From Williamsia deligens (GTDB lineage Bacteria; Actinomycetota; Actinomycetes; Mycobacteriales; Mycobacteriaceae), in the NCBI RefSeq assembly GCF_024171765.1, contig NZ_JAMTCI010000001.1, forward strand, positions 2,528,796 to 2,592,795: a DNA stretch of 64,000 bases, in the 5' to 3' direction. A program made the position numbers and the translations under genes. This document shows positions 45,749-62,927 of this stretch, one piece after another. The stretch's first letter is position 1. Every line of letters starts with the position of its first letter. The notes beneath the pieces are model-generated. The model ran no database searches and was not told the DNA's origin. It worked only from the letters and a program-made list of their open reading frames with translations.

Positions 45749-46123
45749 GTGCCAACGATCAATCAGCTGGTCCGCAAGGGCCGCCACGACAAGGCTGCCA
45801 AGCAGAAGACGGCAGCCCTGAAGGGCAGCCCGCAGCGTCGCGGGGTCTGCACCCGCGTCTACACGACCACGCCGAAGAAGCCGAACTCCGCGCTGCGCAA
45901 GGTCGCGCGTATTCGTCTGACCACCGCGGTCGAGGTCACCGCCTACATCCCCGGTGAGGGCCACAACCTGCAGGAGCACTCGATGGTGCTCGTGCGCGGC
46001 GGTCGAGTGAAGGACCTCCCGGGTGTGCGCTACAAGGTCATCCGCGGTTCGCTGGACACCCAGGGCGTCAAGGCCCGCAAGCAGGCACGCAGCAAGTACG
46101 GCGCGAAGAAGGAGAAGGGCTGA
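45749..46123 (+). CDS. rpsL: 30S ribosomal protein S12
   Basis: A 124-residue S12, essential for decoding at the ribosomal A site. It has [12 protein letters not shown], the loop [39 protein letters not shown] and [11 protein letters not shown]. Residues linked to streptomycin resistance, Lys43 and Lys88, are both wild type. GTG start at 45749, in the standard position; the stop overlaps the rpsG start (TGATG). It is the first gene of the str operon. Confidence 0.98.
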
Positions 46124-46593
46124 TGCCACGTAAAGGACCCGCCCCGAAGCGCCCCCTCGTCAACGACCCGGTCTACAGCTCGCCGCTGGTCACCCAGCTG
46201 GTGAACAAGATCCTGCTCGACGGCAAGAAGTCGACCGCCGAGCGCATCGTGTACCAGGCTCTCGAGCAGGCACGCGACAAGACCGGCACCGACCCGGTCA
46301 TCACCCTCAAGCGCGCGCTCGACAACGTGCGCCCCGCGCTCGAGGTGAAGAGCCGCCGTGTCGGTGGCGCCACCTACCAGGTGCCCATCGAGGTCAAGCC
46401 GAACCGCGCCAACACCCTGGCCCTGCGGTGGCTCGTGACCTTCAGCCGCCAGCGTCGTGAGAAGACGATGGTGGAGCGCCTGGCCAACGAACTGCTCGAC
46501 GCCAGCAACGGCCTCGGTGCCGCGGTCAAGCGTCGCGAGGACACCCACAAGATGGCCGAGGCCAACCGGGCGTTCGCGCACTACCGCTGGTGA
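46123..46593 (+). CDS. rpsG: 30S ribosomal protein S7
   Basis: A 156-residue S7, the primary assembly protein of the 30S head domain, which also contacts mRNA and E-site tRNA. Typical blocks are [66 protein letters not shown] and [18 protein letters not shown]. The ATG overlaps the rpsL stop, giving translational coupling. In other bacteria S7 is the autoregulator of this operon; a binding site in the transcript was not identified here. Confidence 0.98.
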
Positions 46594-46637
46594 CAATCCT
46601 TTTCAACATCGTCAACGCGAAAGAGCGGGGCAGATAA

Positions 46638-48743
46638 GTGGCACAGGACGTGCTGACCGACCTGAACAAGGTCCGCAACATCGGCATCATGGCCCACATC
46701 GATGCCGGCAAGACCACCACCACCGAACGCATCCTCTTCTACACCGGTATCTCGTACAAGATCGGTGAGGTCCACGACGGCGCAGCCACCATGGACTGGA
46801 TGGAGCAGGAGCAGGAGCGTGGCATCACGATCACCTCTGCTGCCACCACCTGCTTCTGGAACGACAACCAGATCAACATCATCGACACCCCGGGCCACGT
46901 CGACTTCACCGTCGAGGTCGAGCGCTCGCTGCGCGTCCTCGACGGCGCGGTCGCGGTGTTCGACGGCAAAGAGGGTGTCGAGCCGCAGTCCGAGCAGGTG
47001 TGGCGTCAGGCCGACAAGTACGACGTGCCGCGTATCTGCTTCGTCAACAAGATGGACAAGCTCGGTGCGGATTTCTACTTCACCGTGCAGACCATCAAGG
47101 ACCGCCTCGGCGCCAAGCCGTTGGTGATCCAGCTGCCGATCGGTGCCGAGAACGACTTCGAGGGCGTCGTCGACCTCGTCGAGATGAAGGCCAAGGTCTG
47201 GTCGGGCGAGACCAAGCTGGGCGAGAAGTACGACGTCCAGGACATCCCGGCCGACCTCGTCGAGCGGGCCGAGCAGTACCGCGAGGAGCTGCTCGAGACC
47301 GTCGCCGAGTCCGACGAGGAACTGCTGGAGAAGCACTTCGGTGGCGAGCCGCTGACGATCGACGAGATCAAGGGCGCCATCCGCAAGATGACGGTCAACT
47401 CCGAGATCTACCCCGTGCTGTGTGGCTCGGCGTTCAAGAACAAGGGCGTCCAGCCCATGCTCGACGCCGTGATCGACTACCTGCCGTCCCCGCTGGACGT
47501 CGAGTCGGTCCAGGGTCACGCACCGGGCGACGAGGAGAAGATCCTCACCCGCAAGCCGTCCGCCGACGAGCCGTTCGCCGCGCTGGCGTTCAAGATCGCG
47601 ACGCACCCCTTCTTCGGCAAGCTGACCTACGTCCGGGTGTACTCGGGCAAGGTCGACTCCGGCGCCCAGGTCATCAACTCGACCAAGGGCAAGAAGGAGC
47701 GTCTGGGCAAGCTCTTCCAGATGCACTCCAACAAGGAGAACGCGGTCCCGACCGCGTCCGCCGGACACATCTACGCCGTGATCGGACTGAAGGACACCAC
47801 CACCGGTGACACCCTGTGCGATCCGCAGGATCAGGTGATCCTGGAGTCGATGAGCTTCCCGGACCCGGTCATCCAGGTCTCGATCGAGCCCAAGACCAAG
47901 TCCGACCAGGAGAAGCTGGGCACCGCGATCCAGAAGCTCGCCGAAGAGGACCCGACCTTCTCGGTCAAGCTCGACGAGGACACCGGCCAGACCGTCATCG
48001 GCGGCATGGGCGAGCTCCACCTCGACATCCTCGTCGACCGCATGCGTCGCGAGTTCAAGGTCGAGGCCAACGTCGGCAAGCCGCAGGTGGCCTACCGCGA
48101 GACGATCCGCAAGACCGTGGAGAAGCACGACTTCACCCACAAGAAGCAGACCGGTGGATCGGGCCAGTTCGCGAAGGTCATCGTCAAGCTCGAGCCGCTG
48201 GTCGACGCCGAGGACGGGGCGACCTACGAGTTCGTCAACTCCGTCACCGGTGGTCGCGTGCCGCGTGAGTACATCCCGTCGGTCGACGCCGGTGCACAGG
48301 ACGCCATGCAGTACGGCGTGCTGGCCGGGTACCCGCTGGTGAACCTCAAGTTCACCCTGCTCGACGGTGCCTACCACGACGTCGACTCCTCGGAGATGGC
48401 GTTCAAGATCGCCGGTTCGCAGGCACTGAAGGAGGCCGCCCGCATGGCCGGCCCCGTCATCCTCGAGCCCCTCATGGCGGTCGAGGTCATCACGCCCGAG
48501 GACTACATGGGCGACGTGATCGGCGACCTGAACTCCCGCCGTGGCCAGATCCAGGCCATGGAGGAACGCAGCGGTGCCCGTGTCGTCAAGGCACTGGTCC
48601 CGCTGTCGGAGATGTTCGGCTACATCGGAGACCTCCGGTCGAAGACGCAGGGCCGAGCGAACTACTCCATGGTGTTCGACTCGTACGCCGAGGTTCCGGC
48701 GAACGTGTCGAAGGAGATCATCGCCAAGGCAACGGGCGAGTAA
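46638..48743 (+). CDS. fusA: Elongation factor G
   Basis: A 701-residue translocase GTPase. G1 is [15 protein letters not shown], the switch-II motif [16 protein letters not shown] follows, and [10 protein letters not shown] is the NKxD guanine-specificity motif. Domains II-V follow at normal length ([50 protein letters not shown]). GTG start with GGGGCAG upstream, 44 bases after rpsG. No duplicate or truncated EF-G is seen, so this is the housekeeping copy. Confidence 0.98.
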
Positions 48744-48856
48744 TCACCGCTGCCGGGGCGCGATCCCTCGCACCACGGCGACCAACGTAAGAGAGAAAAT
48801 CCCAGTCCCTCACCGGGATCTCCCCGGTGTAGGCAACAGTCCAGGAGGACACACAA

Positions 48857-50047
48857 GTGGGCAAGGCGAAGTTCGAGCGGACCAAGCCGCACGTGAACAT
48901 CGGCACCATCGGTCACGTCGACCACGGCAAGACCACGCTGACCGCGGCGATCACCAAGGTTCTGCACGACAAGTACCCGGACCTCAATGCCGCGTTCGCG
49001 TTCGACCAGATCGACAAGGCGCCGGAGGAGAAGGCTCGTGGTATCACGATCAACATCTCCCACGTCGAGTACCAGACCGAGAAGCGTCACTACGCGCACG
49101 TCGACGCACCCGGTCACGCGGACTACATCAAGAACATGATCACCGGTGCCGCCCAGATGGACGGCGCGATCCTGGTCGTGGCGGCCACCGACGGCCCGAT
49201 GCCCCAGACGCGTGAGCACGTGCTGCTCGCCCGTCAGGTCGGCGTGCCGTACATCCTGGTCGCCCTGAACAAGGCCGACATGGTCGACGACGAGGAGATC
49301 ATCGAGCTCGTCGAGATGGAGGTCCGCGAACTGCTGGCCGCCCAGGACTTCGACGAGGACGCGCCGGTCGTGAAGGTCTCGGCGCTCAAGGCGCTCGAGG
49401 GCGACGAGAAGTGGGGCGAGTCGATCGCCGAGCTGATGGCCGCTGTCGACGAGTCGGTGCCGGACCCGGTCCGTGAGACCGAGAAGCCGTTCCTCATGCC
49501 CGTCGAGGACGTCTTCACCATCACCGGTCGTGGCACCGTCGTCACCGGTCGTGTCGAGCGTGGCTCGGTCAACGTCAACGAGGACGTCGAGATCGTCGGC
49601 ATCCGCGAGAAGTCGACCAAGACCACCGTCACCGGTATCGAGATGTTCCACAAGCTGCTCGACTCGGCAGAGGCGGGCGACAACGCCGGCCTGCTGCTGC
49701 GTGGCCTCAAGCGTGAGGACGTCGAGCGCGGCCAGGTCATCGTCAAGCCCGGCACCACGACCCCGCACACGGAGTTCGAGGGCCAGGCGTACATCCTGTC
49801 GAAGGACGAGGGTGGTCGTCACACCCCGTTCTTCAACAACTACCGTCCGCAGTTCTACTTCCGCACCACGGACGTGACCGGCGTCGTGACCCTCCCCGAG
49901 GGCACCGAGATGGTCATGCCGGGCGACAACACCGAGATGAGCGTCAAGCTCATCCAGCCGGTCGCCATGGACGAGGGCCTGCGCTTCGCGATCCGCGAGG
50001 GTGGCCGCACCGTCGGTGCCGGCCGCGTCACCAAGATCAACAAGTGA
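48857..50047 (+). CDS. tuf: Elongation factor Tu
   Basis: A 396-residue GTPase that delivers aminoacyl-tRNA to the ribosome. Motifs are [16 protein letters not shown] (G1), [12 protein letters not shown] (G3) and NKADMVDD (G4; Ala where many species have Cys). [20 protein letters not shown] holds the effector loop and [19 protein letters not shown] is the conserved domain III entry. GGAGGACACACAA precedes the GTG. The 113-base gap after fusA may hold an extra promoter, and a strong hairpin follows the stop. Confidence 0.98.
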
Positions 50048-50165: not shown

Positions 50166-51692
50166 ATGAGCGATGAGCACGATGGAGTGCGGGTCACGAC
50201 GGCATCAGGTGCGGTACGCGGGCGACGGATCACGATGGGGGACACCTCGGTCCATGCGTTCCTGAACATCCCCTACGCGGCGCCGCTCGTCGGGTCGGCA
50301 CGTTTCGAGGCACCGGCCGCCGCGCAGACGTGGGACGGGGATCGCGACGCGACCGCGCACGGACCCACGCCACCGCAGACCCCGTATGCGGCACCGTTCT
50401 CCGAACTGCTGCCCAGCGCGGTCGTCCCGGGCGACGAGTCGCTGAACCTGTCGGTGTGGACACCCGATCCGGGCGCCGCCGGCCTCCCGGTCATGGTGTG
50501 GATCCACGGCGGGGCGTTCGTACGCGGGGCCCACCGCATCCCCACCTACGACGGATCGGCGTTCGCGCGCGACGGCGTGGTGATGGTCGGGATCAACTAC
50601 CGTCTCGGCGCGCTCGGCTTCCTCAGCCTCCCGGGCGCACCCGACAACCGGGGTCTGCTGGACCAGCTGGCGGCACTGCGCTGGGTGCAGGACAACATCA
50701 CCGCGTTCGGAGGTGACCCGGACCGCGTCACGGTCTTCGGGGAGTCCGCCGGCGGCATGAGCATCGCGGCCCTCCTCGCGTCGCCGCTCTCGCCCGGGCT
50801 GTTCGCGCAGGCGATCATCCAGAGCGGCAACGCTGTCGCGGCGGCCGAGGTCGCCGACGCGCGTCTCGTCACCGCCGACTTCACGGAGCGGTTCAGCCTG
50901 CCGCCCACCGTCTCCGGGGTCGCGCAGCTCGACGACGAGACCCTTCTGCGGGCACAGGCAGAACAGGCCGTCGCGATGATGACCGACGGCAGCCCCGGCC
51001 GGTGGGGTCGCACCGTGGCGGCTCGTGGCCTGGGCCTGATGCCCCTGTTCCCGACGATCGACGGCACCGTTCTCGAGTCGCTGCCGATCGACGCGCTCAC
51101 GGCCGGGGCGGGCTCCGGCGTCCCGGTGCTCGCCGGGACCACCCGGGACGAGTTCCGCTTCTTCCTCGTGCCCAGCGGTGTGGCCGGGATGATCACCGAC
51201 GAGACGTTGCCTGCGGTGGCGCAGCGGTTCGGGATCGATCCGTCGGCCGTGGCCGTCTACGCGGCCATTCGTCCGGGTGCGACGCCCGGGGACGTGCTGT
51301 GCGCCGCCATCACCGACCATGCCTTCCGTGCCGGCACCGCCGACATCGTCGACGCGGTCGCGGCACGCGACGGTGGGTCGGCATGGCAGTACGAGTTCGC
51401 GTGGGCGACGGAGGTCCGGGACCTGCGATCGGCTCACGCGCTCGAACTGCCGTTCGTGTTCGACACCGTCGCCGCCACGTCGGCGATGACCGGTCCCAAC
51501 CCGCCGACCGGTCTCGCTGACGACGTCCACGGCGCCTGGGTGCGCTTCGCGACGACGGGCGATCCCGGATGGGACCCGGTGCGCCCAGGCTCACCGCGTC
51601 CGGTGCGGACGTTCGGCGACCCCGACCTCGCCCCCGACGCCGTCGTCCACGACCCCCGCGCCGACGAACTGCCGCTCACCGGCGTCCGCTGA
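50166..51692 (+). CDS. Carboxylesterase/lipase, type B family
   Basis: A 508-residue alpha/beta hydrolase of the carboxylesterase B family. The oxyanion hole is VMVWIHGGAFVRGA (residues 109-122), the nucleophile is S194 in VTVFGESAGGMSI, and the catalytic His is in RSAHALELPFVFD near residue 427. No signal peptide is present, so it is cytoplasmic and likely to hydrolyse small esters or amides. It lies between the str operon terminator and two hairpins, so it appears to be a single-gene unit. Confidence 0.9.
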   Translation: MSDEHDGVRVTTASGAVRGRRITMGDTSVHAFLNIPYAAPLVGSARFEAPAAAQTWDGDRDATAHGPTPPQTPYAAPFSELLPSAVVPGDESLNLSVWTPDPGAAGLPVMVWIHGGAFVRGAHRIPTYDGSAFARDGVVMVGINYRLGALGFLSLPGAPDNRGLLDQLAALRWVQDNITAFGGDPDRVTVFGESAGGMSIAALLASPLSPGLFAQAIIQSGNAVAAAEVADARLVTADFTERFSLPPTVSGVAQLDDETLLRAQAEQAVAMMTDGSPGRWGRTVAARGLGLMPLFPTIDGTVLESLPIDALTAGAGSGVPVLAGTTRDEFRFFLVPSGVAGMITDETLPAVAQRFGIDPSAVAVYAAIRPGATPGDVLCAAITDHAFRAGTADIVDAVAARDGGSAWQYEFAWATEVRDLRSAHALELPFVFDTVAATSAMTGPNPPTGLADDVHGAWVRFATTGDPGWDPVRPGSPRPVRTFGDPDLAPDAVVHDPRADELPLTGVR

Positions 51693-51704
51693 TCCGATCC
51701 GTGG

Positions 51705-51734
51705 TGATCCTTCCCCGCTCAGCGGGAAGGATCC
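51705..51734 (+). terminator. Hairpin after the carboxylesterase gene
   Basis: GATCCTTCCCCGCT-C-AGCGGGAAGGATC (51706-51733) pairs over 13 bases with one bulged C. It begins 14 bases after the esterase stop, the usual place for a terminator. Its centre CCCGCTCAGCGGG is repeated in the larger hairpin at 51768-51816. Confidence 0.7.
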
Positions 51735-51767
51735 CTACGCCTGCGTGATCGCGACGCCCGCTGCTGA

Positions 51768-51816
51768 GGATCCGATGCAGTTCTTCCCGCTCAGCGGGAA
51801 CAAGTGCGTCGGATCC
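51768..51816. repeat. 49-base near-perfect palindrome before menC
   Basis: Outer arms GGATCCGA/TCGGATCC and inner arms TTCCCGCT/AGCGGGAA (51784-51800) give 21 of 24 paired positions around one central base. It shares its core with the hairpin at 51705-51734, so the pair looks like a small repeated palindromic element or a double terminator. It ends 26 bases before the menC start, so it could also affect menC expression. Confidence 0.65.
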
Positions 51817-51842
51817 CGCGTCATCTGTGCCACCGTGGTGCG

Positions 51843-52820
51843 GTGAGCCTGCCGAGCGTCGACGACATCCTCGCTACCGCCCGCGTCGTGGCCCTGCCGA
51901 TGCGCGAACGGTTCCGGGGGATCACCGTGCGCGAGGTGATGGTGTTCCGGGGACCCGCGGGGTGGGGTGAGTTCGGTGCGTTCGGAGAATACGACGATCC
52001 CGAGGCGGCATGGTGGTTGGCGGCCGGCATCGAGGCCGCCTGGATCGGTCCGCCGACACCGCTGCGCGACAGCGTCGCGGTGAACGCGACGGTCCCCGCG
52101 GTACCCGCCGCCGACGTCCCCGACATCCTCGCCCGGTACCCGGGCGCGACCACGGCGAAGGTGAAGGTCGCCGAGCCCGGCGACACCCTCGACGACGAGA
52201 TCGCGCGGGTGGAGGCCGTCCGCGCGACGATCCCGAACGTCCGTGTCGACGCGAACGGGAAATGGACGGTGCCGCAGGCGATCACCGCGTTGCATGCTCT
52301 CGGCGACCTGCAGTACGCAGAACAACCCTGCGCCACCGTCGAGGAACTCGCACAGGTGCGCGCTGCCGTCGACACGCCGATCGCCGCCGACGAGAGCATC
52401 CGCCGCGCCGAGGACCCCATGCGGGTGGTGCGCGCCGATGCTGCCGACGTCGCCGTCGTGAAGGTCGCCCCGCTCGGGGGTATGCGACGGGTCCTGTCGC
52501 TGGCGGCGGACATCCCGCTGGATCTGGTGGTGTCGAGTGCGCTGGACTCCGCGGTGGGCATGTCCGCCGGAATCGCCTGCGCCGCGGCGCTTCCGGACGG
52601 CTCCCTCGCCTGCGGGCTCGGTACCGGGACCATGTTCGTCCGCGACATCGCCGCCCCCTTCGTCCCCGACGACGGGCGGGTGACCCCACGGACGGTCGTC
52701 CCCGACGAGGACGCGCCCGCCGCCGACCCCACCCGAACCCGCTGGTGGGTGGACCGTCTCCGGCGGACACATGCGCTGCTCGCCGCCGGTCACCCGGCGT
52801 CGGAGTGGTCCCAGGTGTGA
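51843..52820 (+). CDS. menC: o-Succinylbenzoate synthase (MenC)
   Basis: A 325-residue enolase-superfamily enzyme dehydrating SHCHC to o-succinylbenzoate in menaquinone biosynthesis, in the cytoplasm. The catalytic Lys pair is AKVKVAEPG (K108 last), metal ligands are D136 (VRVDANGKWT), E160 (QYAEQPC) and D183 (IAADESIRR), and the second Lys is K207 (VVKVAPLGGMRR). The shape matches the short actinobacterial MenC. GTG start at 51843. The menaquinone genes usually next to it are not visible. The P450 operon promoter lies just downstream. Confidence 0.85.
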   Translation: MSLPSVDDILATARVVALPMRERFRGITVREVMVFRGPAGWGEFGAFGEYDDPEAAWWLAAGIEAAWIGPPTPLRDSVAVNATVPAVPAADVPDILARYPGATTAKVKVAEPGDTLDDEIARVEAVRATIPNVRVDANGKWTVPQAITALHALGDLQYAEQPCATVEELAQVRAAVDTPIAADESIRRAEDPMRVVRADAADVAVVKVAPLGGMRRVLSLAADIPLDLVVSSALDSAVGMSAGIACAAALPDGSLACGLGTGTMFVRDIAAPFVPDDGRVTPRTVVPDEDAPAADPTRTRWWVDRLRRTHALLAAGHPASEWSQV

Positions 52821-52845
52821 TCTGGTAGACACTGAGGCCTCACAA

Positions 52846-52865
52846 AGATACGATTCCTCGTATCT
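52846..52865. promoter_or_regulatory. TetR-type operator in front of the P450-TetR-SDR operon
   Basis: AGATACGA-TTCC-TCGTATCT is a perfect 8-bp inverted repeat with a 4-base spacer, 21 bases upstream of the P450 start codon. The size and symmetry are those of TetR-family operators. The TetR gene at 54221, in the same operon, is the natural candidate to bind it. Confidence 0.7.
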
Positions 52866-52886
52866 GTTCCAATGGAGGTGCATGAC

Positions 52887-54224
52887 ATGACGGTCACAGC
52901 GTTCCGCGCTCCCGCCGAGAGCGGCCTGAAAGAGGTCCCGCTCCAGAAGAAGAACGGGGTCCTGGCCGTGCTGCAGATGCGGCACGACCCGTTCGGGTTC
53001 CAACGCAAGCGCCTGGCCGAGTACGGCAAGATCTCCGCGCTGAAGATGTTCGGCCGCGACTGGGTGGTCGCGTCCGGTCCGGAGGCGACCGAGCAGATCC
53101 TGATGAACAAGGACAAGGCGTTCGCCAACGGGCCGGCGTGGACCTTCCTGATCGGGCCGTTCTTCAACCGTGGCGTGATGCTGCTCGACTTCGACGAGCA
53201 CCGCAGCCACCGGCTGATCCTGCAGCAGGGGTTCAACCCGGCGGTGCTGAAGAAGTACATGGCGTTGATGCAGCCGATGATCGCCCAGCGGATGCAGACC
53301 TTCCCGACCGGGAAGGTGGAGCTGTTCCACGAGTTCAAGGCGCTGACCCTCGACGTCGCCCTGGAGGTGTTCCTCGGGCTGGAACTGCCCAAGGCCGAGG
53401 CCGATCGGATCAACAAGGCGTTCCTGGAGACCGTGCAGGCCGGTGTCGCGGTGATCCGCAAGCCGATCCCGGGAACCCGCTGGGGCAAGGGGATCCGCTC
53501 CCGCAAGATCCTCGAGGACTTCTTCTACTCCCACATCCCCGCCAAGCGGGCGACGAAGACCGACGACCTGTTCTCCGTGCTGTGTCATGCCGAGAGCGAG
53601 GAGGGCAAGACGTTCTCCGACGAGGACATCGTCAACCACATGATCTTCGTGCTCATGGCCGCGCACGACACGTCGACCATCACGATGACCCAGATGTGCT
53701 ACCGGATGGCGAAGTCGCCGGAGTGGCAGCGACGGGCGCGCGAGCAGTCGCAGGCGATGGACTCCGAACTGACCTACGACGATCTGGGCAAGCTCACCGA
53801 GCTCGACCTGATCCTCAAGGAGTCCCTGCGGATGTGCACCCCCGTGCCCGCCCACCCGCGCGCGGCGGTGAAGGACACCCAGATCCAGGGGTACTTCGTC
53901 CCCAAGGGCGCCTTCGTCTCGCTGACGGCCCTCCACGACCACTACGATCCCGAGATCTACAGCGACCCCTGGCGTTTCGACCCCGAGCGGTTCGCCCCGG
54001 GCCGCGCGGAGGACAAGAAGCACCGCATGGCGTGGCACCCGTTCGGCGGCGGCGTGCACAAGTGCATCGGCCTGTACTTCGGGCAGATGGAGATCAAGAC
54101 GATCATGCATCAGCTGCTGCGCAACTACGAGTGGTCCGTCCCCGACGACTACACGCTGCCGATGAACTACAGCTCCCTGCCCATCCCCAAGGACGGTTTC
54201 CCCGTGACATTGCGCAAGCTGTGA
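52887..54224 (+). CDS. Cytochrome P450, CYP136-like
   Basis: A 445-residue P450. FLIGPFFNRGVMLLDFDEHR, the I-helix IVNHMIFVLMAAHDTSTITM, ExxR in ILKESLRMCTPVPAH, and the heme loop HPFGGGVHKCIGLYFGQMEI with ligand C393 resemble M. tuberculosis CYP136 (Rv3059), but the N-terminus is about 40 residues shorter. The ATG at 52887 is selected because GGAGGTG lies 7 bases upstream; an ATG 15 bases earlier falls inside that site. Its neighbours TetR and SDR are the same families as Rv3058c and Rv3057c, although here all three share a strand. Substrate unknown. Confidence 0.87.
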   Translation: MTVTAFRAPAESGLKEVPLQKKNGVLAVLQMRHDPFGFQRKRLAEYGKISALKMFGRDWVVASGPEATEQILMNKDKAFANGPAWTFLIGPFFNRGVMLLDFDEHRSHRLILQQGFNPAVLKKYMALMQPMIAQRMQTFPTGKVELFHEFKALTLDVALEVFLGLELPKAEADRINKAFLETVQAGVAVIRKPIPGTRWGKGIRSRKILEDFFYSHIPAKRATKTDDLFSVLCHAESEEGKTFSDEDIVNHMIFVLMAAHDTSTITMTQMCYRMAKSPEWQRRAREQSQAMDSELTYDDLGKLTELDLILKESLRMCTPVPAHPRAAVKDTQIQGYFVPKGAFVSLTALHDHYDPEIYSDPWRFDPERFAPGRAEDKKHRMAWHPFGGGVHKCIGLYFGQMEIKTIMHQLLRNYEWSVPDDYTLPMNYSSLPIPKDGFPVTLRKL

Positions 54225-54805
54225 GCCGCAAGCCCCGGAACACCGACGACCCGCAGGAGCAGGAGGACGCGATCCTCGCGGCCGCCGCGGCGGAGTTCAC
54301 CGACGTCGGGGTGCGCAAGGCCTCCGTCGACGAGATCGCCCGACGGGCCGAGGTCTCGCGCAGCACGCTCTACCGTCGGTTCCCCAACAAGGAGTCGCTG
54401 CTCGTGGCGGTGGCCACGCGGCTCTACCGGGACGGGATGGCGCAGATGGAGCAGGCCATCGTCGGACTGACCCCGCCCGAGGCGATCGCCGAGGCGTTCG
54501 CGGTGGGTGCCCAGCTGATCCTCAAGGACCCGCTGATGCACCGCCTCGTCGTCGACGACCTCGAGATGAAGGGCATCACGTCGTCGTCGGTGACGTCGAT
54601 GTTCATCGACGCGGTCACCGCGAGGACCGTGCGGACCCTCCGGGGTCTCGGTGCGACACGCCCGGACCCGGACCTCACCGACGCCGTCGAGATCATCGTG
54701 CGCCTCGTCATCTCCCAACTGGAGGTGCCGGGGTCGCAGGAGAAGCAGGAGCCGGAGTACGTGCGCTCCTTCGCGGCAAGACACCTGTCACCGATGGTCT
54801 GGTGA
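54221..54805 (+). CDS. TetR-family transcriptional regulator
   Basis: A 194-residue regulator. HTH: EDAILAAAAAEFTDVGVRKA, SVDEIARRAEVSRSTLYRRF and PNKESLLVAVATRLY. The ligand domain is helical, with LTPPEAIAEAFAVGAQLILK. GTG overlaps the P450 stop by 4 bases. It probably represses its own operon at the 20-bp operator (52846-52865), releasing it on binding a hydrophobic effector. It corresponds in place to Rv3058c. Confidence 0.88.
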   Translation: MSRKPRNTDDPQEQEDAILAAAAAEFTDVGVRKASVDEIARRAEVSRSTLYRRFPNKESLLVAVATRLYRDGMAQMEQAIVGLTPPEAIAEAFAVGAQLILKDPLMHRLVVDDLEMKGITSSSVTSMFIDAVTARTVRTLRGLGATRPDPDLTDAVEIIVRLVISQLEVPGSQEKQEPEYVRSFAARHLSPMVW

Positions 54806-54878
54806 CACCCCCGACGATCCCGGACGTGCCGGCTGTGCACGTCCCCCACCCTCGACCCATCAGAAGGACGACGACCCC

Positions 54879-55757
54879 ATGACACCCTCCACCGGAATCC
54901 TCTCCCGCGCTCGCGCCCGCAAGGCCGACCGTCCCGACGTCCGCGGACTCACCATCGCCATCACCGGCGCAGCACGCGGCATCGGCCTCGAGACCGCGAA
55001 GACCCTGCGCGACGCCGGCGCCACCGTGGTCATCGGCGACATCGACGAGGAGGCCGTGGGCAAGGCCGCCGCCGACCTCGGTCACGAGGGCTTCGTCCTC
55101 GACGTCACCGACCCGGACTCCTTCGAGGCGTTCCTCGACGAGGTCGAGAAGGTCGCCGGTCCCATCGACGTCCTCATCAACAACGCCGGCATCATGCCGA
55201 CCGGCCCGCTGCTGAACTACGACCTCAACGTCATCAAGCGCAACTTCGACATCGACCTGCTCGGCGTCGTCATCGGCACCCAGTGCGCGGCGAAGCGCAT
55301 GATCGCACGCGGCGGTGGCCAGGTCGTCAACATCGGCTCGGTGGCCGGACGTCTTCCCGTCCCGGGTCTGACGATCTACAACGGCGCGAAGGCGGGCGTC
55401 ATCGTCTTCTCGGAGGCGGCCGACGTCGAGCTGGCGCCGCAGGGTGTGCGCGTCAAGACGGTCAACCCCACCTTCACGCGCACGGCACTCATCTCCGGCA
55501 TCGCGACGAACAAGTTCGTCCAGACGGTCGGCCCCGAGGACGTCGCCCGCGAGGTGCACAACAGCATCGTCGGCACCAAGACACACATCACCGTGCCGCG
55601 GTCGATGGCGTGGGTGCACGCCAACCCGGTCATGGCGCCCGGGCTGAAGCGGACGCTCGGGAAGTTGACCGGGATGAACCAGATGTTCCTCAGCTACGAC
55701 GACGCCGCCCGCGCGGAGTACCTCAAGCGGGTGAACGGCAACCCCGTCGCCAAGTAG
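54879..55757 (+). CDS. Short-chain dehydrogenase/reductase (SDR)
   Basis: A 292-residue SDR with a ~20-residue N-terminal extension before RGLTIAITGAARGIGLETAK, then VVIGDIDEEAVGKAAADLG (NAD-type Asp), VLINNAGIMPTGPLL, and the active site VNIGSVAGRLPVPGLTIYNG plus the following AKAG. AAGGACGACG precedes its ATG. The C-terminal region (KLTGMNQMFLSYDDAAR) is extended and may bind membranes or a long acyl substrate, as is common for mycobacterial SDRs of this group (Rv3057c position). It likely oxidises the alcohol produced by the P450. Confidence 0.88.
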   Translation: MTPSTGILSRARARKADRPDVRGLTIAITGAARGIGLETAKTLRDAGATVVIGDIDEEAVGKAAADLGHEGFVLDVTDPDSFEAFLDEVEKVAGPIDVLINNAGIMPTGPLLNYDLNVIKRNFDIDLLGVVIGTQCAAKRMIARGGGQVVNIGSVAGRLPVPGLTIYNGAKAGVIVFSEAADVELAPQGVRVKTVNPTFTRTALISGIATNKFVQTVGPEDVAREVHNSIVGTKTHITVPRSMAWVHANPVMAPGLKRTLGKLTGMNQMFLSYDDAARAEYLKRVNGNPVAK

Positions 55758-55853: not shown

Positions 55854-56261
55854 TCACCACTCGTCGAGGCGCGTGTAGCCGTCCTGGATGGCACGGGCGA
55901 AGAGGTTCGCCTTCGACCGTGCGGGGCGGCCCACGGCGGTGTACTTGGCGCGGATACGCGTCAGGTGGGTGTTCACCGTCGACGCCGTGATGTAGAGCGC
56001 TCCGGCGGCCTCGGCCTTCGACTCGGCGGCGAGCCAGGCCAGCAGCACCTCGACCTCACGGCGGGAGAGCGCTGGACGCTCGGGTGCGGTCGAGGCCCCG
56101 GCGGGGGCGGTCGGGGGTGCGGCCGGCGTCGGCCGGGCGACGGGCGCGGACGGGACCACGTGGAGCCCGCCGGCGCGACGCAACGCCGTCGCGCGGTGGG
56201 GCGCGATCACGGGCGGACGGGTCCGGGTCTGGGCAGCCGGGAAATGGGGGGCGACGGACAT
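55854..56261 (-). CDS. LuxR-type HTH DNA-binding protein (stand-alone)
   Basis: A 135-residue protein: a ~60-residue Pro/Ala/Arg-rich, probably disordered N-terminus, then a LuxR C-terminal HTH domain (PALSRREVEVLLAWLAAESK, AAGALYITASTVNTHLTRIR, AKYTAVGRPARSKANLFARA). No receiver, PAS or other sensor domain is present, so the HTH is controlled by something else or by levels. ATG at 56261 follows GGAGGAAA. It is divergent from the STAND NTPase gene with a 191-base spacer, suggesting co-regulation. Confidence 0.85.
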   Translation of the reverse strand: MSVAPHFPAAQTRTRPPVIAPHRATALRRAGGLHVVPSAPVARPTPAAPPTAPAGASTAPERPALSRREVEVLLAWLAAESKAEAAGALYITASTVNTHLTRIRAKYTAVGRPARSKANLFARAIQDGYTRLDEW

Positions 56262-56452
56262 GGGTACGATTTCCTCCGGTTCGGTGACCTGTGCGGCGAT
56301 CGATCGGGGCGCTGCACAGGTGTGCGATGTGGTCACTATGTCCCGACTCGGGTCGGTCTCTCCACCGGAGAGGCCCCTGTGGGGCAAGTCCATACACAGG
56401 TCCATACGTCGGACACCGTCCGGACGGGCATCTGCCCAGGTGAGGGGGATGT
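56262..56452. promoter_or_regulatory. Divergent control region between the LuxR-type gene and the STAND gene
   Basis: This 191-base spacer holds CTCTCC-ACC-GGAGAG (about 56358-56372), a perfect 6-bp inverted repeat, then GCCCC-TGT-GGGGC (56373-56385). Two direct copies of GTCCATAC (56388-56395 and 56400-56407) follow, 12 bases apart. The cluster of symmetrical and direct repeats suggests binding by the LuxR-type protein or by the HTH of the STAND protein. No clear -35/-10 pair was found. Confidence 0.5.
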
Positions 56453-59400
56453 ATGGGTCCGCGGTCCATCGAGACGCGTGACGACTTCGCACGCGCATTG
56501 ACCGAGCTGAAGTCGGCCGCAGGGCTGTCGATCCGGGAGATCGCGGGCAAGGCCGACGCCATCGCGGCGACCGTCGGCGGCTGGTTCTCCGGGCAGCACG
56601 CACCCACGGCTGCCAACACCGACGTGCTGCGCCGGGTGCTGTCGGTGCTGGGTGTCGATCCGGCCGACCACCCCGACTGGATCGAGGCGGCCGCCCGGGC
56701 GCGACGTCAGGCACCCCGTCGCGGCGCGGGCCAGAAGCCTCCCTACCGCGGGTTCACGCCGTTCGAGGTGGACGACCACGCGCTCTTCTTCGGGCGCGCC
56801 GACGTCACCGATCTGGTCATCGAGACCGTGCTGGAGCAGTCCGAGCGCTCGACCGCCATCGTCACCGGGGTGGACCGCCTGCCGGTGGTCACCCTCGTCG
56901 GCCCCTCGGGGGCGGGGAAGTCCTCGGTGCTGCGGGCGGGGCTGTTGGCCCAGCTGGGCCGCGAGGGCCCGTTCGAGGAGTGGCGCTACGTCCTGCTCAC
57001 CCCGGGCACCGATCCCGTCGCGGCGTTCTCCGCGGCCGTCGGCGACATGCCCGACGGCGACGGTCCCGTCCTCGTGGCCATCGACCAGTTCGAGGAGATG
57101 TACACCCTCAACGACGCCGACCAACGCCGACGGCTGATCACCGCCCTCGCCGAGTTCACCGCGTCCCGCGACGAGCTCACCATCGGGGTGCTCACCGTCC
57201 GCGCCGACTATTACGGCGTGCTCGCGGAGAACCCGCGGGCGGCCCGGGCGCTGCAGAACGCGACGGTGCTGGTGCCCGCCCTGGACCAGTCGCAGTTGCG
57301 GGAGGTGATCACCGCACCCGCGGCGGTCGCGGGTGTCGCCGTCTCCGACGACCTCGTCGACCTGCTCATCGCCGACCTGCGCCCCGGGGTGTCCGGCGCG
57401 GGCCTGGGCAGTGTCCTGCCGCTGCTGTCCCATGCGTTGCTGTCGACGTGGTCCCGCTCGAACAAGCGGGTGCTCACCGTCGCCGACTATGTCGCGACCG
57501 GTCGCATCCGCGGCGCCGTCGAGCAGACCGCCGAGCGCGTCTACGCCGAGCTCGACTACGCCGAGAAGATGGTGGCGCGCCGTCAGCTCCTCGCGATGAC
57601 GAACGTCGACGAGGACAGCACCTCCCGGCGTCGCGCGCCGCTCGAGGAACTCGGGTTCCCCGGGCCGGCGCAGATGCCCGAGGAGAAGCGCGACGTCCGG
57701 CAGCGGCGGGCGGCGAGCGTCCTGGACCGGTTCGCCTCCGCCCGACTGGTGTCGGTGTCGGAGACGCACGCCGAGATCGCCCACGAGGCACTGCTGTCGG
57801 CGTGGCCCCGCCTGATGCGGTGGATCGACGAGGACCGCGACCAACTCCTGGTCGCCCGTCGTCTGCAGGCGGCGGTCGAGCTGTGGCAGGACGCCGACGA
57901 GGCGTCGGAGCTGCTGCCGCTGGGCGGACGGCTCGACCTGTTCACCGAGTACGCGCAGGCACCCGAGAACGCGGTGCGGATCACTTCCGATCAGCAGCGT
58001 TTCCTCGACCTGGCCGTCCACCGTCGCGACGTCGTGAGCAACCGTCGTCGGCGGCAGAGTCGTCGGATGCGGGCCATCACCGTCGCCGCGTCACTCCTCG
58101 CGGTCGTCGCGCTGGTCGCGGCCGTGCTGGCCGTGGTCGCGCGATCGGAGGCGGTGGAGCAGAAGGAGGCCGCCGAACAGAGCCGGCTGCAGGCCACCTC
58201 GGCACGTCTGGCCGTCGTCGCCGACGAGCAGCGGTCGCGCGATCCGGCGCTCGCGCAACAGCTCGCCCTCGTCGCCTACCGGTTGTCGCCGACGATCGAG
58301 GCGCGCTCGGCGATCCTCGACACGACCGCGGGGCCGGTGCCGGCCCGTCGATCTGTGCCCGCCGGTGGCGTGGCGATCGCGGTGTCCCCCCAGGGTTCGC
58401 TGGTCGCCGCGGCCTGCGCCGATCACCGGGTCCGTCTCTTCCGTCTCACGGCCGACGGCCTCTCGGACGCCGTCGCCACCGTCGGCGAGGCCGCCGAGGA
58501 CGACCGCTACTACTCGACGAAGTTCTCCCCGGACGGCTCCACTCTCTGGGTGGGCGGCACGGACGGGCTCACCGCGTACGACGTCCGCGATCCCGTGACG
58601 CCGCGCAGGATCACCGACATCCCCCGCGTCGACGGCAGGATCACCGACCTGGCGGTCGACCCCTCGGGCACGACGATCGCGCTCGCCGTCGACGGTGCAG
58701 GGGTGCAGGTCTTCCGACGTGCCGCGACCGGTGCGTGGGCGCCTCTGGCCGTGCCCCCGCAGTTCGCCGGTGCGGGGACGATGGTCGCGTTCAGTCGGGA
58801 CGGTCGCCTCCTCGCGAGCGCGAGCGTCCTGCAACGCGTCGACGTCAGTGAGATCGGCCCCGACGGACTCCGCCCCCTGTCGGCCATCGCACTGCCGGGA
58901 TCGGTGAACGTCACCGCCGACGACGCCGACTTCTCCCCGAGGACGGGCGAACTCGCGTTGGCGCTCAAGACCCGCGACGTCAAGACCTACTCGATGGCGG
59001 ACCCGGCACGACCGGTGCAGACCGCCGACTACACGGACTTCACGAGTTACGTCGGAGGTGTCGCCTACAGCGCCGACGGGACGCACCTCGTCGGGTCGAG
59101 CAGCGACGACACGGCCCGCGTCTACGACCTGGTGAACCGGACCCCGCCGCGCACCCTGCGCAGCGGTGCCGTCACATCCCAGGCGGCATTCGCCGGTGAC
59201 CGGGTGGTGGTGTCCGCGGAGGACGGATCGGTCTCTGTGTGGCCGTCGCGCCAGCAGGCCGTGCAGGCCGGGCCCAAGAACACCTTCCAGTTCGCCTTCC
59301 GCGCCGACGGGTCACGGTTCGTCGTGAGCACATCCGATCCCGACGGAGCCGTGTCGCAGTGGCGGATCGACGACGGGGCCGGTCTGCAACGGGACGGCCC

Positions 59401-60301
59401 GCTGCTCTCGCCGCCGCCGGGGGAGACCTTCTCGGCGCTCGACATGACCACCGACGCGCGGATCGTGGGCGTCGGCACCGCGAGCGGTCAGCTCTACATG
59501 GCCGACGTGTCCGATCCCGCCCGCCCCGCTGTCATCTCACCTGCCGTGCCGATCACCCCCGGGGGGCTGATCGAGACCGTCGCGGTCAGCGGGGCCACCC
59601 GGGTCGCCATCGCCGGGTCGACCCTGTCGACTCAGCTCCCGGTCGTCGACATCAGCGATCCGCGGGCGCCCCGTCGGGTCGCCGCCATCGATCTCGGAGA
59701 CGGGGCCGCGTGGGCGGCGATGTCGCCCGACGGACGTCGCGCGGTGGTCTCCACCGCGACCGGGTACGTACTGCTGATCGACCTGTCGACGCCGGCGCGG
59801 GCACGGGTCCTCAGCCGCACCAAACTGTTCGACACCGGTGCGCTCGCCGCCCGCTTCTCGCCCGACGGACGCCTGCTGGTGGTCAGCTCGGCGACGAAGC
59901 AGGTGGAGGTCCTCGATGTGTCCGACCCGTCGAGACCCCGTACCGTCGCCGACCTGTCGGGACCCACCGGCGCGGTCTACGGCGCCACCTTCTCGCGGGA
60001 CGGTTCCCGGGTCGCCGCGGGCGGTGCGGACGGTCGACTCTGGATCTGGGATGTCCGGGATCGCCGCGTGCCTCGGCCGATCGCGCGGTTGCAGGCCTAT
60101 CCGGGCCGCATCTACGACGTCGCCTTCGGTCCGGGTGACCGCACCGTCCTGGCGACCGGTGCAGCCGGTGTCGTGGGGTCGTGGAACACCGACGTCGACG
60201 GGGTGGTCCGCGGTGCGTGCGCGATGGACAGCGAGCCGATCACCCGTGACGAGTGGAGCCTCTACGTCCCCGGTATGGACTACCGGCCGCCCTGCTCCTA
60301 G
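56453..60301 (+). CDS. HTH-nSTAND1 NTPase with membrane segment and C-terminal beta-propeller
   Basis: A 1282-residue multidomain signalling ATPase. Residues 1-75 resemble a Cro/XRE HTH (LTELKSAAGLSIREIAGKAD). Walker A is GPSGAGKSS (150-158), Walker B is VLVAIDQFEEMYT (206-218), and the downstream TVRADYYGVL and EIAHEALLSAWPRL blocks are typical of nSTAND1. A single hydrophobic segment at about 541-563 follows an Arg-rich stretch. A coiled helix comes next, then about 650 residues of repeated short strands (FSPDGSTLWVGG, YSADGTHLVGSSSDDTARVY, FSRDGSRVAAGGADGRLWIW), a WD40-like propeller. STAND proteins are switchable signal-transducing scaffolds; the ligand is probably sensed by the propeller. 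The gene heads a run of four small membrane-protein genes. Confidence 0.88.
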   Translation: MGPRSIETRDDFARALTELKSAAGLSIREIAGKADAIAATVGGWFSGQHAPTAANTDVLRRVLSVLGVDPADHPDWIEAAARARRQAPRRGAGQKPPYRGFTPFEVDDHALFFGRADVTDLVIETVLEQSERSTAIVTGVDRLPVVTLVGPSGAGKSSVLRAGLLAQLGREGPFEEWRYVLLTPGTDPVAAFSAAVGDMPDGDGPVLVAIDQFEEMYTLNDADQRRRLITALAEFTASRDELTIGVLTVRADYYGVLAENPRAARALQNATVLVPALDQSQLREVITAPAAVAGVAVSDDLVDLLIADLRPGVSGAGLGSVLPLLSHALLSTWSRSNKRVLTVADYVATGRIRGAVEQTAERVYAELDYAEKMVARRQLLAMTNVDEDSTSRRRAPLEELGFPGPAQMPEEKRDVRQRRAASVLDRFASARLVSVSETHAEIAHEALLSAWPRLMRWIDEDRDQLLVARRLQAAVELWQDADEASELLPLGGRLDLFTEYAQAPENAVRITSDQQRFLDLAVHRRDVVSNRRRRQSRRMRAITVAASLLAVVALVAAVLAVVARSEAVEQKEAAEQSRLQATSARLAVVADEQRSRDPALAQQLALVAYRLSPTIEARSAILDTTAGPVPARRSVPAGGVAIAVSPQGSLVAAACADHRVRLFRLTADGLSDAVATVGEAAEDDRYYSTKFSPDGSTLWVGGTDGLTAYDVRDPVTPRRITDIPRVDGRITDLAVDPSGTTIALAVDGAGVQVFRRAATGAWAPLAVPPQFAGAGTMVAFSRDGRLLASASVLQRVDVSEIGPDGLRPLSAIALPGSVNVTADDADFSPRTGELALALKTRDVKTYSMADPARPVQTADYTDFTSYVGGVAYSADGTHLVGSSSDDTARVYDLVNRTPPRTLRSGAVTSQAAFAGDRVVVSAEDGSVSVWPSRQQAVQAGPKNTFQFAFRADGSRFVVSTSDPDGAVSQWRIDDGAGLQRDGPLLSPPPGETFSALDMTTDARIVGVGTASGQLYMADVSDPARPAVISPAVPITPGGLIETVAVSGATRVAIAGSTLSTQLPVVDISDPRAPRRVAAIDLGDGAAWAAMSPDGRRAVVSTATGYVLLIDLSTPARARVLSRTKLFDTGALAARFSPDGRLLVVSSATKQVEVLDVSDPSRPRTVADLSGPTGAVYGATFSRDGSRVAAGGADGRLWIWDVRDRRVPRPIARLQAYPGRIYDVAFGPGDRTVLATGAAGVVGSWNTDVDGVVRGACAMDSEPITRDEWSLYVPGMDYRPPCS

Positions 60302-60383
60302 GTCGGACCTGCCGAGCGCGGGGCGACCGGGCACCTAGCATGGTGCGGACCCGTCACCGGTGGCGGTCGGTACGGAGGTGAGT

Positions 60384-60965
60384 GTGGGTTCGGACGCGCG
60401 CGACGCCCGCCGTGCCCTGCGCGCCGCCCGCATCGAGTTGCGCACCGCGACGGCCGATCTCGACAGGCTCGAGGGTCGGCGCCCTCGGCGTTCCGTCCCG
60501 CGCTGGGCGGTGCTCGTCGTCGTCGTGGCGGTCGTGCTCGCCGCCGTCACGGCGGTGATGGTGCAGCGTCGCGTCAGCACGACGGTCTACCCCGACGCCG
60601 AGGTCATCGCCGCGACACGGGCCCTGATCACCCCCGTCCTCACCCCCGACGTCGCTGACCCCGACGCCGCCGGTCGCATCCTCGACGACGCCACCGGGTC
60701 GTTCCGCGACGAGTTCGCCCAGTCCGGCGGCGCCTACCGTGCGCTCGTCGCCCGGTTGGGAACCCGGACCACCGGCACGGTCGACGGCGTCGCGATCGCC
60801 GACCGCAGGGGGGACGCCGCGAGCGTGCTGGTGACCGCGGTGCTGGTCACGAGCCGCACCGACGCGGCTCCACAGACCACCGATCCCCGACGGCTGCGTC
60901 TGATGGTGGCGGTCGCCCCCGACGGGGGACGGCTGAAGCTCGCCGACGTGGAGCTTGTGCCGTGA
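60384..60965 (+). CDS. Mce-associated-like single-pass membrane protein
   Basis: About 193 residues. A charged, helical N-terminus (ARDARRALRAARIELRTATA) is followed by one transmembrane helix (about 41-60) and an extracytoplasmic domain. The domain's wording (ATGSFRDEFAQSGGAYRALV, RLRLMVAVAPDGGRLKLADV, ending ELVP) recalls Mce-associated membrane (Mas) proteins, in which a VirB8/NTF2-like domain follows one helix. GTG at 60384 is chosen because GGAGG ends 5 bases upstream. It starts 82 bases after the STAND stop. No mce genes are nearby. It overlaps the next gene by 4 bases. Confidence 0.72.
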   Translation: MGSDARDARRALRAARIELRTATADLDRLEGRRPRRSVPRWAVLVVVVAVVLAAVTAVMVQRRVSTTVYPDAEVIAATRALITPVLTPDVADPDAAGRILDDATGSFRDEFAQSGGAYRALVARLGTRTTGTVDGVAIADRRGDAASVLVTAVLVTSRTDAAPQTTDPRRLRLMVAVAPDGGRLKLADVELVP

Positions 60966-61636
60966 GCGTGGTCCGCAGGGCCGTCACGCTCTGGGTCGAC
61001 GTGCTCGGCGTGACGGTGTCCGCGGTGCTGGTGGCCGCGATGGCCGGGGTGGTCGGGACGCCCGCGTGGTGGGTGTCGCTGACGGTGACCACGGTCGTGA
61101 TCGCGGTGGCCACGGTGATCGTGGCCCGCGCCGCGTGGCCGGGGACCGCGGATCGTCGCCGCGGAGCCGGAACCGCGGCCCTCGACGGCGACCGTGTCGC
61201 GGTGATCCTCGCGCTCGTCGTGTGTGCGGGCCTGCTCGCCGCCGGCGTCGGGTTCGTCGCGGTCGCGGCGGACGCCCGCGCCGACGCCCGGGCGCGCGTC
61301 GATGCTCGAACGGAGGTGGCGCAGACGGGTGCGGCGATGGTGTGCCGCGTCATCGAGCGGGGGACACCTGCGCGACAGGCCGCCGCGGAGGCGTCCGCCA
61401 CCGGCGACCTCGCCGATCGGCTGCGGACGGGCGCAACCGTTCTCGGGACCGATGTGTCCTCCGCGACCTGCCGCCCGGTGCAGACCGCGCTCACCTCGTC
61501 GTCGACCGATGCGGCCGAGGTGCTCGTACTCGTCGACGTGACCGCCGACGGCGACACCGTCGGACAGGCGGTGGCCGCCGGGCTCCGGCGGGTCGACGGT
61601 CGATGGCGCGTCGCCTCCCTGCAGGTGCTCCGATGA
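60962..61636 (+). CDS. Three-helix membrane protein with Mas-like C-terminal domain
   Basis: A 224-residue protein with three predicted transmembrane helices (about residues 9-31, 36-57 and 79-102). A ~120-residue extracytoplasmic domain follows, containing two Cys (AAMVCRVIERG and SATCRPVQT) that could form a disulfide and ending RVDGRWRVASLQV. The ending is the same type as in the neighbouring genes and in Mas/VirB8-like domains. The GTG overlaps the preceding stop by 4 bases. It is not recognisable as a named family; its role is inferred only from the cluster. Confidence 0.68.
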   Translation: MSVVRRAVTLWVDVLGVTVSAVLVAAMAGVVGTPAWWVSLTVTTVVIAVATVIVARAAWPGTADRRRGAGTAALDGDRVAVILALVVCAGLLAAGVGFVAVAADARADARARVDARTEVAQTGAAMVCRVIERGTPARQAAAEASATGDLADRLRTGATVLGTDVSSATCRPVQTALTSSSTDAAEVLVLVDVTADGDTVGQAVAAGLRRVDGRWRVASLQVLR

Positions 61637-62256
61637 CCGACGACCCCACGCCCGAGGTGCCGGCATCGCGCCGTCTCACCGTCGCCCGCGAGCGGGTGAG
61701 GGACGCCCAGGCCGCGGTCGACGCCGCGCGCGCGGCCCTGGAGGACGCGAACCCCGGCGACGGGACTCGCGGGAGACGGTGGGGTCGGACCGTCGTGGCG
61801 ACGAGCGTGCTGGCTCTCGTCGTCGCCGTCGCGGCGGCGCTGGTCGGGGTGATCCTGATCCCCGACAGCGGGAGCGGTGACGACACGGGCTCCGTGGTCG
61901 CCGCGTCGACCGCGGCCGTCACGACGGTCCTCACCGCGGATCCCGCACACCCCGACCGCTACCTCGCCGCGGCCCGCGACGTCAGCGGCGGCGAGTTCCG
62001 TCGTCGCATCGACGCCGCAGCCCCCGCGATCACCGCAGCCGTCGCCGGTCTGTCCTCCGCGGGGTCCGGGCAGGTCGTCGCCGCGGGCGTGGTGGGGTCG
62101 GCGCCGGCGTCCGGCCCCGCCGACGTCCTCGTCGTCGCCGAGGCGACCGCGCCCGAGCTGGTCGGTGGTTCGTCGGGCGATCGCCGGATCGTGCTGTCGG
62201 TGACCATGATCCGACGTGGCGACCGGTGGGTCATCGGGCAGGTGACCCCGCGATGA
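61633..62256 (+). CDS. Mce-associated-like single-pass membrane protein (second copy type)
   Basis: A 207-residue protein with a helical charged N-terminus (RRLTVARERVRDAQAAVDAA), one transmembrane helix (about 54-76) and an extracytoplasmic Ala/Asp-rich domain ending MIRRGDRWVIGQVTPR. Its layout repeats that of the protein encoded at 60384, so the pair of single-pass and multi-pass genes appears duplicated. ATG overlaps the preceding stop by 4 bases. No enzymatic motif is visible. Confidence 0.68.
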   Translation: MTDDPTPEVPASRRLTVARERVRDAQAAVDAARAALEDANPGDGTRGRRWGRTVVATSVLALVVAVAAALVGVILIPDSGSGDDTGSVVAASTAAVTTVLTADPAHPDRYLAAARDVSGGEFRRRIDAAAPAITAAVAGLSSAGSGQVVAAGVVGSAPASGPADVLVVAEATAPELVGGSSGDRRIVLSVTMIRRGDRWVIGQVTPR

Positions 62257-62927
62257 GAACGGTCCGTGCGGTGCTCGCCGCCCTTTCCATCACCGGCGTC
62301 GTCGTCGGCGGGTGGCTCCTCGGGTGGCCCGGTTGGGTGATCCCGCCCGCGGTCGTCGTGGTCCTCCTCGTCGCGGGACTGGCGGCGTGGCCGAGAACCC
62401 CTGTCGCGTCACGCTCCGGGCACACGCGCACCGACGTCGCCCTCGGGGTCGTCGCGGTGGTGGTCGTCGGCATGACGTGCCTCGCCGCGGCGATCGCCCC
62501 GCGGGGGAGCACCGGCCCGGGAGCAGGGCCCGCGTCACTGCGAGACCGGGCGTCGTCGGCGACATCGGCGTATCTCACCGTCGCGCCCGGCGCCTCCGCG
62601 TCCGATGCCGTCGCAGCCCGGTTGCGAACGCTCGCACCCCTGCTCACGGGACGCGCGCTGGCCGACCTCCGCAGTCAGGGGCCGGACTCCGCCCTCCCGG
62701 GTGCGACCGCCACCGGGTCCTCGCAGGAGGTCTCGGTGCAGTCGGTCGGACTCGCCACACTGCGTGGCGACAGCGCGCGGATGATGCTGTTCGCCACGGT
62801 GCGCGTCACGGTCCCGACGGCGACGCCACCGGCCTCGACAGCGTCGATCGCCCGGTGGGTGGTGATGCGTAGAGTCGACGGCACATGGCGACTCGCCGAC
62901 ATCTACCCGGTGGGCCCGGGCGGGTGA
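62253..62927 (+). CDS. Three-helix membrane protein with Mas-like C-terminal domain (second copy type)
   Basis: A 224-residue protein with hydrophobic segments at about residues 5-24, 28-46 and 62-81, then an extracytoplasmic domain (SATSAYLTVAPGASASDAVA ... ARWVVMRRVDGTWRLADIYP). It has the same length as the protein at 60962 and the same ending type (VDGxWR). ATG overlaps the preceding stop by 4 bases, so all four membrane proteins form one coupled unit after the STAND gene. The function is unknown. Confidence 0.68.
   Translation: MRTVRAVLAALSITGVVVGGWLLGWPGWVIPPAVVVVLLVAGLAAWPRTPVASRSGHTRTDVALGVVAVVVVGMTCLAAAIAPRGSTGPGAGPASLRDRASSATSAYLTVAPGASASDAVAARLRTLAPLLTGRALADLRSQGPDSALPGATATGSSQEVSVQSVGLATLRGDSARMMLFATVRVTVPTATPPASTASIARWVVMRRVDGTWRLADIYPVGPGG

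Follow-up and report, generated by a model that had tools for sequence, protein, structure and literature searches.

The stretch of DNA analysed here (the window, 64,000 nt from Williamsia deligens) contains an ORF of 1282 aa for a STAND protein (56453-60301, plus strand), a gene for a LuxR-type HTH protein divergent from it (55854-56261, minus strand) and, downstream of the STAND gene, four genes for small membrane proteins (the quartet). A preliminary description of this DNA had given the same inventory, and the ORFs and the GerE match bear out the divergent stand-alone LuxR-HTH gene beside the 1282-residue STAND protein, as the four ORFs found downstream bear out the membrane-protein genes. 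The features are as follows.

55854..56261, minus strand: stand-alone LuxR-type (GerE) HTH protein, 135 aa (Pfam, ORF calls)
56314..56325, no strand: GCACAGGTGTGC, 5-2-5 palindrome (same-genus promoter comparison)
56388..56407, plus strand: tandem direct repeat GTCCATAC-ACAG-GTCCATAC, putative operator (comparison across loci)
56453..60301, plus strand: STAND protein, 1282 aa, in the order HTH, nSTAND1, TM, WD40 region
56483..56674, plus strand: N-terminal XRE-like HTH (HTH_31, under the Pfam cut-off), residues 11-74
56741..57904, plus strand: nSTAND1 NTPase, residues 97-484 (Pfam, alignment of 16 orthologues)
58064..58159, plus strand: single transmembrane helix, residues 538-569, with Arg-rich N-terminal flank (hydropathy)
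58160..60298, plus strand: WD40/beta-propeller region, residues 570-1282, with invariant C1256 and C1281 at its end
60384..60965, plus strand: quartet gene 1, one TM, Mce-associated-membrane-protein-like, a neighbour outside the LuxR/STAND unit
60962..61636, plus strand: quartet gene 2, about three TM (hydropathy), paralogue of gene 4
61633..62256, plus strand: quartet gene 3, one TM, paralogue of gene 1
62253..62927, plus strand: quartet gene 4, about three TM (hydropathy), paralogue of gene 2

The LuxR gene most likely encodes 135 aa from the ATG at 56261 rather than the 286 aa of an ORF that begins with GTG. The 4-base overlaps described before exist between the quartet genes, but not between the STAND gene and the quartet, where a gap of 82 nt separates the STAND stop codon (60301) from the GTG start of the quartet at 60384; this start was taken from the gene caller, and GTG 60360 is a possible alternative. 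Upstream of the LuxR gene (50235-55757 of the window) lie genes for an esterase, MenC, a P450, a TetR-type protein and an SDR, of which the TetR-type one is labelled provisionally, from a sub-threshold ScbR match. The genes at 45749-50047 are presumably of the rpsL-rpsG-fusA-tuf kind.

The STAND protein is a member of the nSTAND1 family. Its nSTAND1 domain (PF20703) is full-length, with a Pfam match at residues 97-484 (E 2.8e-95) that covers model positions 1-377 of 379, and the P-loop from G150 and the acidic Walker B motif (D211-Q-x-E-E) are intact here and kept in all 16 aligned orthologues. The XRE-like HTH_31 match at residues 11-74 reaches 25.1 bits against a Pfam cut-off of 27, so the previously suggested order of XRE-like HTH, nSTAND1, one TM helix and WD40 stands except that its HTH remains below threshold. 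The WD40-type Pfam matches fall within residues 645-1250, and the best solved sequence relative of this region is 5yzv (residues 1126-1246, E 4.7e-19), which reflects a likeness to PkwA-type kinase-WD40 proteins confined to the WD40 region; PkwA has a kinase in place of the STAND NTPase. Hydropathy gives a single hydrophobic segment, residues 538-569, in agreement with the membrane helix that had been placed at residues 541-563, and this helix is found in 16 of 16 orthologues with a hydropathy maximum of 2.24-2.97. Moreover, its N-side flank is the more positive one in 15 of the 16. The residues C1256 and C1281 are invariant in all 16, and 14 of these proteins have no other Cys after the helix; since Cys is scarce before the helix too (0-6 per protein), the argument from this pair lies in its invariance and not in its rarity. 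The conserved helix and the invariant terminal Cys pair together suggest that the NTPase is inside, while the propeller and its predicted disulphide would be outside the membrane. Alternatively, the propeller might be cytoplasmic and the hydrophobic segment a buried helix or a peripheral anchor, as Apaf-1, a STAND/WD40 protein matched by the STAND protein, is soluble. We consider this improbable in view of the hydropathy maxima, the positive N-flank and the invariant Cys pair, and because a TM segment between the P-loop NTPase and the WD40 region is also present in all 24 distant relatives checked (80 were fetched), 17 of which carry a C-terminal Cys pair 24-25 residues apart. The same helix in these actinobacterial, cyanobacterial and other nSTAND1-WD40 proteins (PF20703 plus WD40) means that the transmembrane layout is widespread and not special to this locus, so the earlier view of an unusual one-protein layout is not upheld. 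Unlike here, a small LuxR partner is not among the matches listed for the 80 loci of these relatives, where the best reached 27 bits inside a longer ORF and several flanks were short.

The small LuxR-type protein has a GerE HTH of 33.6 bits (Pfam cut-off 23.5), and no Pfam domain besides GerE, thus no N-terminal sensor or receiver domain, was found in its 135 aa. In its homologues a core of about 75 aa is conserved and the rest varies; the HTH is among the conserved parts and the N-terminus among the variable ones, and many share the C-terminal tail RPA.(T/S)K..LFARA.QDG.T.LDEW. Such homologues also occur without a STAND gene, many of them adjoining two-component genes. In a LuxR tree of 79 rows and 74 columns the STAND-linked label is clustered, requiring 9 changes against 21.4 in shuffled labels (0 of 500 shuffles were as low), and the STAND-linked proteins do not form one clade. 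Next to one relative (L083:5621-9072), Pfam identifies a kinase with HATPase_c and also a response regulator, and the relatives in L085, L089-L091 and L093 lie beside genes resembling NarL-type two-component genes. The four relatives in L089, L090, L091 and L093 share the upstream stretch TCCCCA.TTCTGGGTCTA, which is unlike the repeat at the STAND genes.

To see how the two genes are distributed, 201 family genomes were searched, and at E<=1e-80 a STAND gene was called in 58 of them, in 20 of 31 genera. All eight genomes of the same genus have it. A small LuxR gene of the same family adjoins it in 50 of the 58 genomes, divergently in 45 and co-directionally upstream in five (G055, G008, G030, G038 and G071). 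The remaining eight, in which the LuxR gene is not adjacent, are G067, G051, G173, G034, G021 (only 66% complete), G097, G068 and G027. Since a genome has roughly one to eight LuxR genes of this family, simple arithmetic gives fewer than one chance adjacency over all 58 genomes. In the eight same-genus genomes the divergent pair always lies between an SDR and a ferredoxin-reductase gene, and between genera the flanking genes differ. The dissimilar flanks imply that the LuxR/STAND pair is kept as a unit, and judging from gene order it is this pair that forms the conserved unit. The pair is a real, conserved two-gene pairing assembled from known families. No description of it was found in searches of open-licence PMC papers, and none occurs in the retrieved parts of PMC5487216, PMC7159879, PMC10907252, PMC5587647, PMC8195603 and PMC5760070. 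In G136 (L080, L086), G077 (L087) and G042, LuxR genes flank the STAND gene on both sides.

The tandem repeat in the intergenic region ends 45 nt upstream of the STAND start codon and has the general form TCSRTAC-N4/5-TCSRTAC with a period of 11-12 nt. Its half-sites covary within the genus, as TCCGTAC occurs twice in G004 and G007. Among the 30 loci of the first set, 27 have a loose repeat between LuxR and STAND that points at the STAND gene, 19 of them in the strict form, and L076, L079 and L080 have none; of 28 further STAND genomes nine have the repeat, two of them (L190, L202) in reversed orientation ahead of a co-directional pair. In total, 36 of the 58 STAND genomes carry it and 22 do not by the pattern used, and since this pattern was derived from these very loci, the counts are descriptive. 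The repeat mostly starts 60-100 nt, and up to about 150 nt, upstream of the STAND start. As a control, each locus was shuffled once at the mononucleotide level, and the two strands of these 565 kb then yielded four loose and no strict matches. The repeat accompanies 35 of the 50 adjacent LuxR/STAND pairs but one of the eight STAND genes without an adjacent LuxR gene (Fisher p 0.0034, with no correction for kinship). The exception is G034. In addition, it is absent at the 14 examined LuxR loci without a STAND gene (L083-L085, L089-L098 and L100), L092 having one loose match 1.5 kb from its LuxR gene. In G023 (L088:5547-6187) the LuxR gene and a loose repeat are kept and are followed by a weak STAND-like remnant of 29 codons (E 0.009). 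The association with LuxR adjacency speaks for the LuxR protein as reader of the repeat, and the absence of the repeat at the 14 LuxR loci without STAND and its presence in G034 speak against it; G023, with its STAND-like remnant, weighs neither way. The LuxR protein is one candidate reader, the HTH of the STAND protein the other. Without mismatch, the fixed 20-base repeat occurs once in seven of the eight same-genus genomes and twice in G002. With one mismatch there are 40 sites over the eight genomes, the exact ones included, against one for the reversed control, which makes further sites and targets possible; the surplus may reflect base composition or further operators. Furthermore, the 5-2-5 palindrome (56314-56325) is found at about the same place in six of the eight same-genus genomes, as GCACG/CGTGC in one of them, and is an additional candidate site.

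The quartet shows a different distribution from that of the pair. Its genes 1 and 3 resemble each other (32% identity), as do genes 2 and 4 (25-27%), and hhalign supports both relationships (E 2.1e-12 and 2.1e-13), so the quartet is a doubled two-gene unit. Gene 1 (at 120 bits or more) is present in 33 of the 201 genomes, 16 with a STAND gene and 17 without one (E<=1e-80). The preliminary description had joined all six genes in one envelope-sensing system, and this is borne out for LuxR and STAND, which stand together in 50 of 58 genomes, but not for the quartet, which lies within 6 kb of the STAND gene in 13 of 58 and is thus usually separate from it. A single six-gene system would fit the contiguity of the genes here, with the STAND gene and the quartet on the same strand, and the four of 58 genomes in which the quartet directly follows the STAND gene with no gene between (G000, G004, G007 and G013, the last with a 4-nt overlap). 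We nevertheless regard it as very unlikely, since beyond these counts two opposite-strand genes intervene in four same-genus genomes (L024-L027), G006 of the same genus has the pair without the quartet, and G023 has LuxR and quartet with only the 29-codon remnant of a STAND gene. The gene order across the family genomes led us to reject a six-gene operon. The intervening genes in L024-L027 are of the universal-stress-protein and amino-acid-permease kinds, by Pfam in L027 and by resemblance in the rest and in other genera.

The surroundings of the quartet point elsewhere. A ferredoxin-reductase gene lies directly 3' of it in 14 of 17 contexts (the exceptions are L215, G013 and G023), and here mycofactocin genes follow downstream (L032, 4239-10001), with MftR, MftB and MftC above the cut-off and an MftD match on a protein cut by the end of the locus. 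By its neighbours, the quartet is at home in a P450-TetR-SDR-quartet-ferredoxin-reductase-mycofactocin locus, and the position of the LuxR/STAND pair between SDR and quartet in this genus is most simply explained by insertion. Next to an mce operon in G001 are genes homologous to quartet genes 1 and 4 (31% identity, E 1.6e-17 and 2.5e-13), and MCE genes are no more than 6 kb away for at least 16 of 38 more distant homologues of gene 1 (37 were scored by script; the G123 row was left out and counted as a miss). Because gene-1 homologues adjoin MCE genes elsewhere, the quartet can be called Mce-associated-like. However, tblastn with four MCE proteins found no MCE gene near the quartet in any of the 17 contexts (7.5-64 kb each), the controls L030 and L031 giving matches. 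Curated Mam models did not match the quartet, with only weak Rv0361_Cterm matches (E 0.066 and 0.22), and an hhalign comparison of gene 1 with one Mam-like protein gave no match. The quartet therefore shares homology with Mam/Omam proteins while having no MCE gene nearby, and appears to resemble orphan Mce-associated membrane proteins, being at most of the orphan type. An example of this type, according to PMC5487216, is OmamA of Mycobacterium tuberculosis, which stabilises an Mce lipid importer. A likely mis-grouping is thereby corrected, the quartet pointing to lipid- or mycofactocin-linked metabolism. It could also be argued that the LuxR/STAND pair is a local regulator that responds to a substrate and governs the genes for P450, SDR, quartet, reductase and mycofactocin, considering that all eight same-genus genomes have it between SDR and ferredoxin reductase and that the quartet-type proteins suggest lipid-related envelope work. 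In other genera, though, the pair adjoins unrelated genes, the metabolic locus carries its own TetR-type gene, and seven of the eight same-genus genomes contain the exact repeat just once, even if one-mismatch copies exist. We therefore take such local control to be rather unlikely.

As STAND NTPases, including nSTAND1, occur in proposed bacterial conflict systems according to PMC8195603 and PMC10907252, the locus might instead serve in phage defence or conflict, with the WD40 region as its sensor, a role that the preliminary description had also raised. Against PADLOC models the six genes give weak, local or generic matches, which lend it no support: mad3 (8.9e-4), HmaA (0.084), mad8 and AriA on the P-loop and CARF3 (7.7e-4) on the LuxR HTH. 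Of 10 neighbours in other genera, out of 13 picked, two match PADLOC models (a C3a156 oxidoreductase, 3.2e-13, and a dCTPase, 2.8e-6), yet their Pfam matches point to a luciferase-like monooxygenase and a cytidine-type deaminase, and they form no known set. The PADLOC models showed neither a STAND anti-phage (Avs-like) family nor a defence-island context. The inheritance in a fixed place within the genus, the lack of any effector domain found and a sensor side that appears to lie outside the cell also speak against defence. With weak PADLOC matches and no defence set among the neighbours checked in other genera, this candidate was rejected, and we hold it to be most improbable.

Considering all these results, we think it fairly probable that a LuxR/STAND signalling cassette, membrane-spanning and with its own putative operator, stands here side by side with a separate quartet that belongs to a metabolic locus. 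From the parts, their order and conservation, the adjacency and the repeat, all read from sequence, we infer the following signal flow for this cassette. The propeller outside the membrane would sense a ligand or a state of the envelope and signal through the single TM helix to the STAND NTPase, and the NTPase would flip between an ADP-closed and an ATP-open, oligomerising form. The N-terminal HTH of the STAND protein and/or the small LuxR protein would then act at the tandem repeat, and this would control the divergent LuxR/STAND pair and perhaps other genes. If the pair works in this way, it would add a way for a single protein to carry a signal across the membrane to transcription, neither as a two-component system nor as an anti-sigma factor; the STAND protein occurs in 20 of the 31 family genera searched. 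The tandem repeat offers a handle and the LuxR protein is a candidate output protein, so the pair is directly testable.

IniR (Rv0339c) and MalT are, like the protein proposed here, STAND-type ATPases that act as transcription regulators, and PMC5760070 reports that IniR responds to envelope stress. In both, the ATPase itself ends in the LuxR-like HTH, whereas here this HTH is encoded by a separate gene and the HTH fused to the STAND protein is N-terminal, XRE-like and sub-threshold. Besides, WD40 repeats and a transmembrane segment, both present in the STAND protein, are not mentioned in the retrieved main text on IniR (PMC5760070). A more specific reading, which we put forward only tentatively, is a split transmembrane counterpart of MalT and IniR, in which the outside propeller would drive the STAND NTPase by way of the single membrane helix, this would hold or release the separate LuxR-HTH output, and the HTH of the membrane-bound STAND protein would bind the tandem-repeat operator of its own promoter. 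Given that the same kind of LuxR protein stands beside two-component systems, it would then be an interchangeable output module. NarL-type two-component loci (such as L083, L085 and L089) contain a close relative of the small LuxR protein and, unlike this locus, have neither a STAND gene nor the tandem repeat.

In addition, G000 carries two STAND-WD40 paralogues (G000:C1:2450453 and G000:C1:326129), with no small-LuxR gene near them among the matches listed. And the STAND match is split over two frames or contains an internal stop in G134:C1:5192458-5196229 and G033:C189:5977-7593, which may be due to decay or to sequencing error.
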